NCBI GenBank assembly: GCA_020350565.1
Contig: CP070718.1
Location: 2,394,590 to 2,438,138 of the forward strand
Origin: Phycisphaerales bacterium
GTDB lineage: Bacteria; Planctomycetota; Phycisphaerae; UBA1845
Length of the DNA: 43,549 bases
Direction of reading: 5' to 3'
The notes under the pieces were generated by a model. The model saw only the letters and a list, made by a program, of their open reading frames with translations, had not been told where the DNA came from and made no database searches. The position numbers and the translations under genes are program-made. Below are positions 27,887 to 39,379 of the stretch, in pieces (the first letter of the stretch is position 1; every line of letters starts with the position of its first letter).

Positions 27887-27914
27887 ATTCGCTATTCGTC
27901 ATTCGCTATTCCGC
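27887..27914. repeat. ATTCGCT heptanucleotide repeat, four units
   Basis: Four units in perfect 7-nt register: ATTCGCT, ATTCGTC, ATTCGCT, ATTCCGC. On the minus strand the repeat supplies the TAG stop codon of the lipoprotein gene (27906-27908). A more degenerate copy occurs at 7282-7309. Confidence 0.7.
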
Positions 27915-29570
27915 AGTCGCCGGTGTCACCGTGAGCGTGCCTTCTCCCACGTTGTATTGGATCTCGGGGTTCCCAAACTCGTCGGTGACGATCGCACCTT
28001 CTTCGTCGACCTTGAGTTGGTTGTTCGTCCTTTCCACGGTAACGGTGATCGTGTCGCCGCAATTGAAGTGCGTGCCGAGCTGGAGCAGTCGGCCACGCAC
28101 GATGGCAAGCGATTCTTCGTCGAAACCCGCGGTGCCCGTGCCGTCGCCGGTGAGGACGACCGCGTGGTAGATGATGCCGCCGCCGCTGTCGAAGATCGTT
28201 CCGCCGCCAGTGGAGTAAGTGCTGTCCTGCGGCTGCAGGTGAGCCGCGGCGATAATGTACTCCTGGGCGCAGCTCTTAACGCCCTCGCTGGCTCCCAGCG
28301 GTGCGACGCGAACGTCGAATTCGCTGCTGACTTCTGATCCTCCACTGATGGCCAGGCTGCCGTTGCCGGTGGCGAAGTTCACTTGAATCGTGCTCTCGGT
28401 CTGGTTGACCACGCGCAGGGTAACGGCGGCGGTTTCCTCCTCTTCGTCGTCGGGCTGCTCGGGGTCCGGAAGGTCCGGTGCCGGGAGGGGTTCGCCTGCC
28501 GCGAACACGTTCACCGACCCGAGCGGCGTATTGCTGGTGCTCGCCCCGATGCCCGTCCCATCGTCCGTGATGCGAACCACGATCGACTGGCCGCATTGGT
28601 AGTGGTCCTCGAAGAGCAGGATACGTTCACCGTCAAAGCCGATGCTCGCGTCATCGAAGCCGGGCGTTCCCGTGCCGGCGCCCGTGAAGAGGATCTTGGA
28701 ATCCGTGCCGTCCTCGATCGTTCCGTCCACCACGAAGGTGCCACCGCAGGTGATCTCTCCGAAGGAGAATTGACCGGCAGGAACGCGGACGCTGGTTTGG
28801 TTCGAGCCTTCCTCCTGGCCGGCGTCTCCCGAGGAGCTCTGTGCGGAGATGCTGATGTCGGCCGGAGTGGCCGTGGCGTTCTCCAGGCGAAACGTGACCT
28901 TGGCGAGGTCGGTCGTCGGCGTCTCCTCCTCATCTGGCATGTCGACTCCGCCGGTCACGGGGGCAGGTAGCGGCGACCCCGCCGCTATAACCTCCAATTC
29001 GGCACGGTCGACGGCCAGAATCTTGATCAGGACCGCGTCGCCGCAGGCGAAATCCACTTGATGGATGAGGAATCGGTCGCCCGAAGTGCCGATGCTGCCG
29101 GAGTCAAAGCCGGGGGTGCCCGTGCCGGCGCCGGTCAGTTCGACCGCTGTTGACGAGCCCGATCCGACGACCGCGGAGACGGTGATTTCCTCACCGCAAA
29201 GCAATGTGCCGGAGGAGACGTTGCCGCTGGCGACACGCACGACGGCATTGGAGACTGGCGATCGGAGCTGGGCGGTGGTTGGATCGATCGTCTGACCTTC
29301 GGGCAGCTCCTTTCCGGCGTCCGGCGTCGCAGCGGACTGCTCCCCGGTCCGCGACATGGGGGCCATCTTCAACGTTGCCGGTGACGATGAGTCCCCCGCC
29401 GTGACGTTAATGGAGACCTCCGCCACATCTGGAGCTGCGTTTTCGATCCGGAAAGAAATGGTGCTCTCGGGGACAATTTCGATGTAGCCCAGGCCGCAGC
29501 CATGGAGCGTGACCGCCACCATGGCGATCAAGGCCACTAGGCCAATCCCAGGAAGCGCTCTTCGCCTCAT
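27906..29570 (-). CDS. Lipoprotein with three internal repeats, function unknown
   Basis: The 554-aa product starts at 29570 (GGGAGG upstream) with a lipoprotein signal and lipobox TLHGC (Cys25). It consists of three related units at about residues 38-205, 226-365 and 383-550. Each begins with a strand like TFRLEN or TLRVVN, has a cysteine near CGEEIT/CGGTFV/CAQEYI, then TGAGTGTPGFDxxSIG and a second cysteine near CGDxxxI; the Cys pairs are 125/176, 275/326 and 434/504 and could form disulfides. The units are joined by acidic Pro/Glu linkers (PLPAPDLPDPEQPDDEEEE). I recognise no family. It is divergent from the ParA-like gene. Confidence 0.8.
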   Translation of the reverse strand: MRRRALPGIGLVALIAMVAVTLHGCGLGYIEIVPESTISFRIENAAPDVAEVSINVTAGDSSSPATLKMAPMSRTGEQSAATPDAGKELPEGQTIDPTTAQLRSPVSNAVVRVASGNVSSGTLLCGEEITVSAVVGSGSSTAVELTGAGTGTPGFDSGSIGTSGDRFLIHQVDFACGDAVLIKILAVDRAELEVIAAGSPLPAPVTGGVDMPDEEETPTTDLAKVTFRLENATATPADISISAQSSSGDAGQEEGSNQTSVRVPAGQFSFGEITCGGTFVVDGTIEDGTDSKILFTGAGTGTPGFDDASIGFDGERILLFEDHYQCGQSIVVRITDDGTGIGASTSNTPLGSVNVFAAGEPLPAPDLPDPEQPDDEEEETAAVTLRVVNQTESTIQVNFATGNGSLAISGGSEVSSEFDVRVAPLGASEGVKSCAQEYIIAAAHLQPQDSTYSTGGGTIFDSGGGIIYHAVVLTGDGTGTAGFDEESLAIVRGRLLQLGTHFNCGDTITVTVERTNNQLKVDEEGAIVTDEFGNPEIQYNVGEGTLTVTPATAE

Positions 29571-30003
29571 TTTCTTAACCTCCCGTCCTACAGAAGCTTC
29601 CGTCGGGGCGGGTGCATCGGCGTCCCCGGTTCTCTGCCGCCGGGAGGCGCGCACCCGTTCCGTAATTCATCCATCGTCCAGGTGTGAGGGTGCCTACATC
29701 TCCAATTCGGCGGCTCGCCTGGTAATGCTGGCAAAAGGGGGAGTGAGCAGTAACAGCACTGGGAATGCGAACTCGTCCGATAAACGGCTCAAGTTTCTTA
29801 GCGTTGGCAACCGATACTCGGACTTGAGGACGAGCGTTGTCTTAGCGCCCACACCGGGGCGTCATGGCGCGGTACAATAGCGGCCAGGATGGCTGCATAG
29901 ATCCTCTCTATCTTCGGAACAACCGCTCGATGGGCGGCAGGAGGCGGCCCGTCGCGGCGGAGGAATAACACCGCCTCCCTCAGCAATTCTTGAGGGTTTC
30001 CAC
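29571..30003. other. Divergent intergenic region between lipoprotein and ParA-CBM gene
   Basis: This 433-nt region must hold promoters for both flanking genes. A small hairpin GGCGG/CCGCC or GGAGG/CCTCC is possible around 29957-29980 just upstream of the ParA-like ribosome-binding site GAGGG (29992-29996), where it could influence initiation. I see no gene. Confidence 0.45.
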
Positions 30004-31296
30004 GTGTACGTCATCACGGTTGCGAATCAGAAGGGCGGCTGCGGTAAGACTACGGTCGCGATCAATCTGGCTGCTTCCCTGGCAAAGCGGTCGCGACATG
30101 TCTTGCTGGTTGATCTTGATCCTCAAGCCCATTGTTCATTGGGTCTGGCTGTTCCTGACGAGCAGATTGATCTGTCGATCTACGACTGCCTGATCGGGCA
30201 GATCGAGGGCCAGCCGGTTGAGCTCTCACGAATCATCTGGCAGATCACGCCGAACATGGGGCTCGCACCTTCTCGTGCAAACCTGTCCACCCTTGAACCG
30301 CGTCTCGGTGAGCGGAAGGGTGTGGACACGCTGTTTCGCGATTTGTTGTGCGGCTACAGCGAACGGTATGACTATTGTGTGGTGGACTGCCCGCCGCATG
30401 CGGGGTTGTTGATGCGTAACGGTTTGGTGGCGGCGAACGAGATCGTCATCCCGGTAGACACCGGCTACTTTTCGCTGCACGGGCTGACGCGGCAGATGGC
30501 CTCGATCGAGCACCTCTGCGAGACCCACGAAACGTCGCCCCTGGTGTGCGTGCTGCCCAATCAGTACGACGTTCGCACGCGACTCGCACGCGAGATCCTC
30601 GCCGAACTTCGCAGCCGATTCAGGGATTCGGTCTATACGACGACGCTCAATTTCAACACCAAGCTGAAGGAGGGCGCAAGTTTCGGTCAGCCCATCACCG
30701 AATTCGCACCGACCAGTATGGGGGCCAAGGATTTCCAGAACCTGGCCGATGAGATCCTTGGACGAGAGCAGGAGCGCGCCGGGGACGACACGCTGCTGCG
30801 GCACGTGGAGAAACTGACGGCCGACGCTGAGCGGCTGCTCGCGACCACGACGACGCTGGTGAGCAGCCCCATGAGGGATGCGTCCGCACCGGTTCCGGTC
30901 GCGGATACGAATGCGGTTGAAGCCGCTACGCTGTGTGATTCGATGCCCTCCATTGAGCTTCCGGAAGTCGCCGAACCGGCCTCACATGAGGAAATCGAGC
31001 AGAAGCTCGAGGTGATCTACGGTGCGCGAGTGACGGGGGAGGAGGTCATCTTCCGCACGCCGCATCCCGAGGCCCAGGAGGTTCACCTGGCTGGTGACTT
31101 CAACGATTGGATGCCGCACAGAAACCCCATGAGGCGGCTCGAGGGCGGCGATTTCGAGACGCGCTTGGCGCTACCCTTCGGTCGCTATCGCTATCGCCTG
31201 GTGATCGACGGGCGCTGGTCGCACGATTTGCATAATCCTGACGCCGAAACGAACGAATACGGCGAACTGAACTCCGTGATCGAGGTCGGCGGATAG
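30004..31296 (+). CDS. ParA/MinD-type ATPase fused to an AMPK-beta-like glycogen-binding domain (CBM48)
   Basis: Residues 1-255 are a ParA-family ATPase: deviant Walker A KGGCGKTT (residues 10-17), VDLDPQ with Asp37/Asp39, and VVDCPPHAG with Asp128. Residues 256-328 are a linker. Residues 345-428 match the CBM48/AMPK-beta module: VIFRTPHPEAQEVHLAGDFN, DWMP, YRYRLVIDGRWSHD and a final LNSVIEV. The two sugar-stacking tryptophans (Trp369, Trp405) and the Asn (Asn423) that contact glycogen in AMPK-beta are kept. No ParB gene is adjacent. It starts with GTG (GAGGG, 7-nt spacer). Function is unknown; one option is positioning or counting of glycogen granules. Confidence 0.88.
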   Translation: MYVITVANQKGGCGKTTVAINLAASLAKRSRHVLLVDLDPQAHCSLGLAVPDEQIDLSIYDCLIGQIEGQPVELSRIIWQITPNMGLAPSRANLSTLEPRLGERKGVDTLFRDLLCGYSERYDYCVVDCPPHAGLLMRNGLVAANEIVIPVDTGYFSLHGLTRQMASIEHLCETHETSPLVCVLPNQYDVRTRLAREILAELRSRFRDSVYTTTLNFNTKLKEGASFGQPITEFAPTSMGAKDFQNLADEILGREQERAGDDTLLRHVEKLTADAERLLATTTTLVSSPMRDASAPVPVADTNAVEAATLCDSMPSIELPEVAEPASHEEIEQKLEVIYGARVTGEEVIFRTPHPEAQEVHLAGDFNDWMPHRNPMRRLEGGDFETRLALPFGRYRYRLVIDGRWSHDLHNPDAETNEYGELNSVIEVGG

Positions 31297-31335
31297 ATCG
31301 CGGTCCCTCAGCTTCTCCTTTTCATCTTCGTAGTG

Positions 31336-31365
31336 CCCGCCGCGCTTGTTTGCGGCGGGTTTTTT
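31336..31365 (+). terminator. Intrinsic terminator after the ParA-CBM gene
   Basis: CCCGCCGC / GCGGCGGG (8-bp stem, 31336-31343 and 31352-31359) with an 8-nt loop is followed by six Ts (31360-31365). It lies between convergent genes. Confidence 0.88.
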
Positions 31366-38247: not shown

Positions 38248-39379
38248 CTACTTGTGCCGCTGGGCGGCGCGGTGGCGGAGTTCGGCGTCGATGAAGGACT
38301 GGATGTCGCCGTCGAGGATGGCCTGGATGTCGAAGCGCGTGTGGCCCGTGCGGGCGTCCTTGCAGCGCTGCTCGGGGTAGAGGAAGTAGCTGCGAATGGC
38401 GTTGCCCCAGCCGATCTGGCCCTTGGCGTCGTAGATCTTGGCCAGCTCCGAATCGCGTTTGGCCCTTTCCAATTGATAGAGCCGAGCCATCAACATGCGG
38501 CGAGCGACCGCGCGGTTCTTGTGCTGCGAGCGCTCGTTCTGACATTGCACGACGAGGCCGGTCGGATGATGGGTCAGCCGGATGGCGGACGACGTCTTGT
38601 TCACGTGCTGGCCGCCGGCTCCGCTCGCTCGATACGTGTCCTCGCGGACTTCCTTATCCCAGTCGATCGCGATGGCGACGTCATCCACCTGGGGCTGCAC
38701 GTCGACCGACGCAAAGCTGGTTTCGCGTTTTCCCTGCGCGCTGAAGGGTGAGATGCGCACCAGCCTGTGCACCCCTGTTTCGCAGGAAAGGTATCCGTAG
38801 GCATACGGTCCTTTGACCAGGAGGTTGCAGGACTGGATGCCGGCCTCCTCGCCGTCGCGGATGGAGAGCTCCTCGGCTTCGTATCCGTTATCCTCGAAAT
38901 AGCGAAGGTACATGCGCAGGAGCATGGAAGCCCAGTCGCAGGCATCGGCGCCGCCGGTGCCGGCCTGGATGTTGAAATAACAATCGCTCGCGTCATCAGA
39001 GCCGGAGAGAAGCGTGAGCGTTTCCGTTCGATCAACCTCTCCGGCGAGCTCTTGCAGGCCTTGGGCCAGTTCGGTTCGGACCTCCTCATCCTCGGCTTCT
39101 TCGAGCAGCTCGATCATCGCCTTCAGTTCGTCGGCATGCTCCTGAAGGCGACGCGCCGGCTCGACGATGGCCTTGAGCGCCTTGAGCTCCCCAACCGTCT
39201 GCTGCGCGGACTCCTGGTCATTCCAGAAGCCTGGGGCCGCCATCTTCGCCTCGAGTTTCTTTAACGCCTCTTCCTTGGATGAGATGTCAAAGGGAGTCCC
39301 GAACGGCGACGATACGCGCGAACAGCTCACTGGAAAGGACGGGCAGGTTTTGGGTTTGAACGTGGTTGTCGCTGGGCAT
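38248..39379 (-). CDS. prfB: Peptide chain release factor 2, expressed by programmed +1 frameshift
   Basis: RF2 ends translation at UGA and UAA. The main frame holds the SPF stop-recognition tripeptide (LVRISPFSAQGK) and the GGQ catalytic motif (RASGAGGQHVNKT). The true start is the ATG at 39379: 30 codons (MPSDNHVQTQNLP to AVRDSL) lead to CTT TGA C (39292-39286), where the in-frame TGA is bypassed by a +1 shift to GAC, giving 376 aa. This is the classical RF2 autoregulation, in which low RF2 favours the shift. The spacing and homology to other RF2 (DISSKEEALKKLE) agree. The upstream SD-like stimulator is weak (CGGGA). prfB follows the PPIase gene by 37 nt. Confidence 0.93.
39286..39292 (-). 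promoter_or_regulatory. RF2 +1 frameshift site CTTTGAC
   Basis: CTT TGA C on the minus strand: CTT in frame 0, then the TGA stop, with GAC read after the shift. It matches the E. coli prfB slippery sequence exactly. The stop lies after codon 30. Confidence 0.9.

Follow-up and report, generated by a model that had tools for sequence, protein, structure and literature searches.

A ParA-type ATPase joined to an AMPK-beta-type CBM48 module in Phycisphaerae: a possible positioning system with a probable alpha-glucan-binding tail

A single gene of a Phycisphaerales bacterium encodes a complete ParA-type ATPase which runs on, in one reading frame, into a carbohydrate-binding module (CBM48) of the AMPK beta type, and homologous loci were found by a scan of genome contigs in 80 cases, the fusion being full length in 79 of these and interrupted by the end of the contig in the other (L074). 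The reading that we favour, at a little under even confidence, takes the protein for a positioning ATPase of the ParA/MinD family with its own alpha-glucan-binding module, whose job may be to position or share alpha-glucan particles or to couple another cargo. The fusion is not described in the titles, abstracts and term counts on ParA with CBM48 or glycogen granules that were covered, a body of literature which is incomplete, and it is best read as a variant of the ParA/MinD positioning systems not previously described.

The fusion gene and its surroundings

The window, by which is meant the whole analysed stretch of 43,549 nucleotides, contains the fusion gene with the following features:

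30004..31296, + strand: coding sequence of the ParA-CBM48 fusion, 430 aa, GTG start, one frame open for 430 codons, with full-length homologues
29992..29996, + strand: GAGGG, a possible ribosome-binding site judged by sequence inspection only, with the GTG 7 nt on
30862..30969, + strand: linker, aa 287-322, of low confidence in the AlphaFold2 model (pLDDT < 50) and probably disordered
31335..31360, + strand: terminator-like hairpin of 10 pairs with a T run, 3' of the fusion gene

The search for hairpins returned three, against 1.5 expected in shuffled sequences, and the two besides that at 31335-31360 have five pairs. With GAGGG in front of it and a good terminator behind, the gene probably stands alone in the window. 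The length of the fusion protein differs among family members (family alignment, n=80), and the linker of several relatives (L123, L124, L125 and L100) carries a short helix-like motif, RAAELxxRxxEL, which is retained even where the CBM is absent.

Two further genes of the window were noted. The prfB gene (RF2; 38248-39330, - strand) contains CTTTGAC at 39286-39292 (- strand), and the preceding frame reads SELFARIVAVRDSL-stop, so that RF2 is probably made by a programmed +1 frameshift, a mechanism known for this factor. A divergent lipoprotein-like gene at 27906-29654 (- strand) has no Pfam match, and in L005, L009, L010 and L057 homologues of it likewise lie upstream of the fusion in divergent orientation.

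The ATPase half

30004..30777, + strand: ParA/Soj-type ATPase domain, aa 1-258 (AAA_31, Soj 1wcv, AlphaFold2 model)
30025..30054, + strand: deviant Walker A, NQKGGCGKTT, aa 8-17, with signature K10 and K15 (sequence, family alignment)
30646..30687, + strand: loop, aa 215-228 (LNFNTKLKEGASFG), at the position of the ParA/Soj DNA-contact loop IxRNxxLAEAPSxG (alignment)

AAA_31 is matched at aa 3-174 with 145 bits against a cut-off of 27 (E 3e-42; hmmscan, Pfam) and the Soj structure 1wcv aligns to the N-terminal half with E 4e-41 (phmmer), whilst the AlphaFold2 model predicts a Soj/ParA fold for this half, with 9a6n found by Foldseek at E 1.7e-26 and a TM (target) of about 0.93. The motifs KGGCGKTT, VDLDPQ and VVDCPPHAG, picked out by an earlier sequence-only reading of this DNA, lie where that reading had put them. 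In the family alignment (n=80) K10, G11, G12, G14, K15, T16 and T17 are invariant, with C13 in 79 of 80, as are D37, D39, Q41, D128 and P131 in and around the Walker A' (VDLDPQ) and Walker B (VVDCPP) motifs. The ParA-type positioning mechanism which the same reading proposed is likewise supported by homology, under which the ATPase half would dimerise on ATP and bind a matrix, probably the nucleoid.

The loop at aa 215-228, which we presume to be equivalent to the DNA-contact loop of Soj, departs from the usual pattern: the Soj-type IxRNxxLAEAPS has become NFNTKLKEAAS in most fusion proteins, with F217 instead of Arg/Lys in 68/80, K220 retained in 67/80, and a Lys or Arg gained at 222 in all 80. 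With a basic residue exchanged for Phe, K220 kept and a basic residue added at 222, DNA binding is plausible but altered, and the Arg-to-Phe change leaves the matrix of the ATPase uncertain.

The CBM48 half

31018..31287, + strand: AMPK-beta-type CBM48 module, aa 339-428 (PF16561, PF02922, 1z0n)
31108..31110, + strand: W369, counterpart of AMPK beta-1 W100 (80/80, 1z0n alignment)
31216..31218, + strand: W405, counterpart of AMPK beta-1 W133 (80/80, 1z0n alignment)
31270..31272, + strand: N423, counterpart of AMPK beta-1 N150 (73/80, 1z0n alignment)

The AMPK1_CBM family (PF16561) is matched at aa 356-428 with 47 bits (cut-off 26.8, E 2.9e-12) and CBM_48 (PF02922) with 34.6 bits against a cut-off of 22.4 (both hmmscan), the AMPK beta-1 CBM structure 1z0n aligns to the C-terminal half with E 5e-11 (phmmer), and LSF1, a plant CBM48 protein, also matches this module by sequence. 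With both domains above their Pfam cut-offs, the earlier claim of an ATPase and a CBM48 in one frame is borne out, and W369, W405 and N423 are in place and conserved as it had stated. Residue R398, present in 79/80, aligns with K126 of AMPK beta-1 (phmmer, 1z0n), and AMPK L146 and T148 are replaced by an aromatic residue and Glu; the AMPK numbers W100, K126, W133 and N150 follow what we take to be the standard numbering. Positions F366, N367, W369, Y397, D402, W405, D408, N411 and G420 are invariant (n=80). Judged by alignment, the CBM keeps its predicted sugar-contact residues, and the module is probably alpha-glucan-binding. A profile search found PF16561 once in the window's genome, which is estimated to be 67% complete, and that match is the fusion itself.

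Distribution and origin

The contig scan was queried with peptides from both halves of the fusion, and the set of 80 loci is thus biased towards proteins that resemble the query. By their titles nearly all loci come from Phycisphaerae or other Planctomycetota, with three from Omnitrophota (L075, L078 and L080) and one from 'Actinomycetes' (L079); in the fusion tree the L079 contig is nested among planctomycetes, and it is probably misbinned. The search for both domains in one protein across genomes, as the sequence-only reading had suggested, found the fusion in the Phycisphaerae, the class of the window, in 92 or more of the 150 genomes sampled, and besides in one further planctomycete, G054, and in the three Omnitrophota. 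The 92 carriers comprise 85 with a profile match reaching the end of the CBM and seven confirmed by reading of the sequence, six of these from families f91 and f98 plus G387. Most genomes of families f92, f97, f90 and f6 in the class sample are without the fusion, and G054 is the sole confirmed case outside the class among 294 genomes of the phylum.

In an unrooted IQ-TREE phylogeny of the ParA half (60 sequences, including 19 ordinary ParAs), the fusion proteins all lie on one side of a single branch, which has support of 100/97 and occurs in every bootstrap tree. The carrier genomes hold separate, ordinary ParAs in another clade; that of the window genome, at 564708-565622, groups with the ordinary ParAs and apart from the fusions. 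The single clade of the ParA half makes the fusion look old, of single origin and mostly vertically inherited, although an unrooted tree is no proof of this.

A candidate partner gene

Clustering of open reading frames over the 80 loci revealed a same-strand gene of 386-666 aa directly behind the fusion, in two clusters over 26 loci plus singletons. The encoded proteins share an N-terminal motif, [IL]xx[IL]AxLFL[ST], a linker rich in proline and a folded core; most also have a C-terminal domain, and none contains a Pfam family above cut-off. The core is well predicted in the AlphaFold2 model of the L040 protein and resembles FlhG (4rz2, Foldseek E 7.7e-9, with a low TM across the whole chain), and a comparison of the partner with the ParA-family profile in hhalign gave 82%. 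A P-loop is absent from all 29 partners inspected, so that the likeness to MinD and FlhG is one of fold only. The N-terminal motif occurs in 23/29 partners vs 1/2083 background open reading frames, figures which are indicative since the pattern was written after the partners had been seen. We found no description of this family.

The profile A1 matches the gene immediately adjoining that of the ATPase in 50/150 class genomes. Comparison of two lists of coordinates showed all A1 matches above about 71 bits to be neighbours of the ATPase gene, whilst weaker matches away from it resemble FlhG-type genes. The absence of a ParB or kinase gene next to the fusion, reported from the sequence, holds within the window, where neither these nor a glycan gene adjoins it (open reading frames plus Pfam scan), but the picture of an ATPase gene without a partner does not extend to the family, given those 50 genomes. 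No adjacent partner gene occurs in the window, and its near relatives are likewise without one next door. In the window genome A1 has a single match, of 46 bits, which is the flagellar FlhG adjoining flhF/flhA, and elsewhere in the window the motif was met only in one chance match, at an internal start inside the open reading frame of a membrane protein; both candidates were rejected.

Neighbours of other kinds were seen in the more distant carriers. The gene upstream of the fusion in all three Omnitrophota encodes a membrane protein, unrelated to the partner, with an N-terminal motif of like kind, YEHLAKIYLD, and the gene behind the fusion in G054 starts MMKRKKLGRGIEDFIGAFVS, which to our eye resembles the ParA-binding peptides of ParB. 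In the Omnitrophota the fusion is followed by a lysine-rich protein with an end like EF-Tu domain 2 (L075 3457-3891, L078 2185-2637, L080 4034-4414, all + strand).

In published ParA/MinD partners a disordered N-terminus docks on the ATPase and the remainder binds cargo (PMC10241942, PMC12462528). The layout of the neighbour gene product agrees with that of these partners, and it is therefore read as an activator or cargo adaptor; by this analogy, the gene adjoining the fusion is likely to encode its ParA/MinD-type partner.

Alpha-glucan metabolism in carriers and non-carriers

In the window genome a gene for a GT4/GT5-like glycosyltransferase adjoins one for a GH57 enzyme, and alpha-glucan phosphorylase is also present (TIGR02094, 837 bits). 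Phosphorylase matches were obtained in 21/21 carriers tested, a test confined to carriers, and many carriers have GT5-like/GH57 or GT3 synthase genes. An argument that glycogen could be excluded for want of a synthase (GlgA, TIGR02095, in 3/150 class genomes at 1e-40) was dropped after a wider search with PF08323, PF00128, PF00343 and PF03065, plus reading of loci, had yielded GT5-like/GH57 pairs, alpha-glucan phosphorylase and, in genus g2, a GT3 glycogen synthase. From the GT/GH57 pair, the GT3 synthase and the phosphorylases in carriers, an alpha-glucan ligand is probably available. GH57 and GT5-like genes also occur in non-carriers, which rules out that glycogen genes track the fusion, and no glucan gene adjoins the fusion in the window or is among the recurrent neighbours inspected at the 80 loci.

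Three arrangements of these genes were recorded in their own right. A GH57 gene adjoins a GT4/GT5-like glycosyltransferase in L129 (4372-7099, - strand), a pairing which recurs in many Phycisphaerae, carriers and non-carriers, and which may be the alpha-glucan synthesis pair of the class. A eukaryote-type GT3 glycogen synthase (562 bits) adjoins an alpha-glucan phosphorylase in genome G002 (L133 6357-10259, - strand). In two genomes of family f6 without the fusion, a GlgA-like gene lies near a stand-alone CBM48 protein of 109 aa (G274 C1:232350-236765 and G289 C1:1041292-1045711).

The module is also missing from some relatives: G409 and G262 have the ATPase and the partner and no CBM, G202 has no CBM, and G102 has lost both CBM tryptophans. 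Some lineages can thus do without the CBM, conserved as it is, a pattern of loss which fits an attachment for cargo or for sensing better than a core role. On the proposal of glycogen or another alpha-glucan as matrix or cargo, made from the sequence, the evidence points both ways: carriers have alpha-glucan enzymes, but non-carriers have several too, none was seen beside the fusion, and the CBM is sometimes lost. Its mention of carboxysome-like bodies found no support.

Discussion

With the ParABS systems (Soj/ParA) the fusion has in common the ATPase domain, the deviant Walker A with its signature lysine, the Walker A'/B motifs and the predicted fold, and it differs from them in the CBM48 tail, the altered DNA-contact loop, the lack of an adjacent ParB and another likely partner. 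In McdAB carboxysome positioning, ParC, PomXYZ and MinDE the ATPase likewise has a partner of its own which docks on it by an N-terminal peptide (PMC10241942), a layout that the fusion and its candidate partner would share. In contrast to these, the likely partner of the fusion is a MinD-like protein without a P-loop. To our knowledge, none of these four systems has a carbohydrate-binding module on its ATPase. The partner shares its predicted core fold with FlhG, FleN and MinD, but has no P-loop, an additional N-terminal motif and C-terminal domain, and no Pfam family above cut-off. The CBM resembles those of AMPK beta and LSF1 in sequence match, the two stacking tryptophans and the Asn, but it sits on an ATPase with no kinase and has Arg in place of K126.

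In the mechanism that we propose, the CBM48 on its flexible linker would tie the ATPase to alpha-glucan, and the partner, in many relatives the product of the next-door gene with its peptide, disordered linker, P-loop-less FlhG/MinD-like core and C-terminal domain, would trigger ATP hydrolysis and release through its short N-terminal peptide. The most likely single job would be the placing or dividing of alpha-glucan (glycogen-like) particles, or the linking of another cargo to them. The narrower version, in which a ParA-type system spaces glycogen-like particles and shares them between daughters, the ATPase holding the glucan through CBM48 and a pseudo-MinD partner acting as the switch, we consider unlikely, and the glycogen particle as cargo is a guess.

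The protein could instead serve another cargo, such as the divisome, a chromosome region or, in Omnitrophota, a membrane complex, with the CBM sensing alpha-glucan as a gauge of the energy store and so tuning the ATPase or its position. This would suit the AMPK-beta type of the module, as AMPK beta senses alpha-glucan, the likeness of the partner core to FlhG and MinD, which regulate flagella and division, the membrane protein next to the Omnitrophota fusions, and the two genomes which have ATPase and partner without CBM, as expected of an add-on regulator. However, division, flagellar and chromosome-partition genes are not among the recurrent neighbours inspected at the 80 loci, and we regard this reading as somewhat unlikely. 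A loss of sugar binding, with the CBM48 turned into a protein-interaction or dimer-stabilising module of the positioning system, appears quite unlikely: the exchange of K126 for Arg and of L146 and T148 for an aromatic residue and Glu would agree with it, as would the distribution of alpha-glucan genes, which does not follow that of the fusion, and CBM48 folds are structural in many enzymes, but the constancy of both tryptophans and, in 73/80, of the Asn is unlike the drift of an unused site.

The Soj-type fold and motifs might also suggest that the fusion is simply the usual chromosomal ParA of its hosts, bearing a decorative domain. This is very improbable, as carriers, the window genome included, own separate ParAs in another clade, the fusion has no adjacent ParB and an altered IxRNxxLAEAPS loop, and it is missing from many members of the class. 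An artefact of frame, assembly or prediction, for which nothing speaks except the 67% estimate for the window genome, is refuted by the 79 full-length homologues in other assemblies.

ParA/MinD ATPases position DNA, carboxysomes, chemoreceptor arrays, flagella and the divisome by means of protein partners. Here a conserved family bears a module for polysaccharide on its own ATPase, which suggests that a polymer kept for storage can act as cargo, matrix or signal. The idea is made testable by the partner gene and its motif, which name a likely activator, a short peptide and two tryptophans. If the particle-sharing reading is true, a carbohydrate store would be handled as inherited cargo. The fusion also hints at a way of organising the cell that is peculiar to one bacterial class, a deep one that has been little studied.
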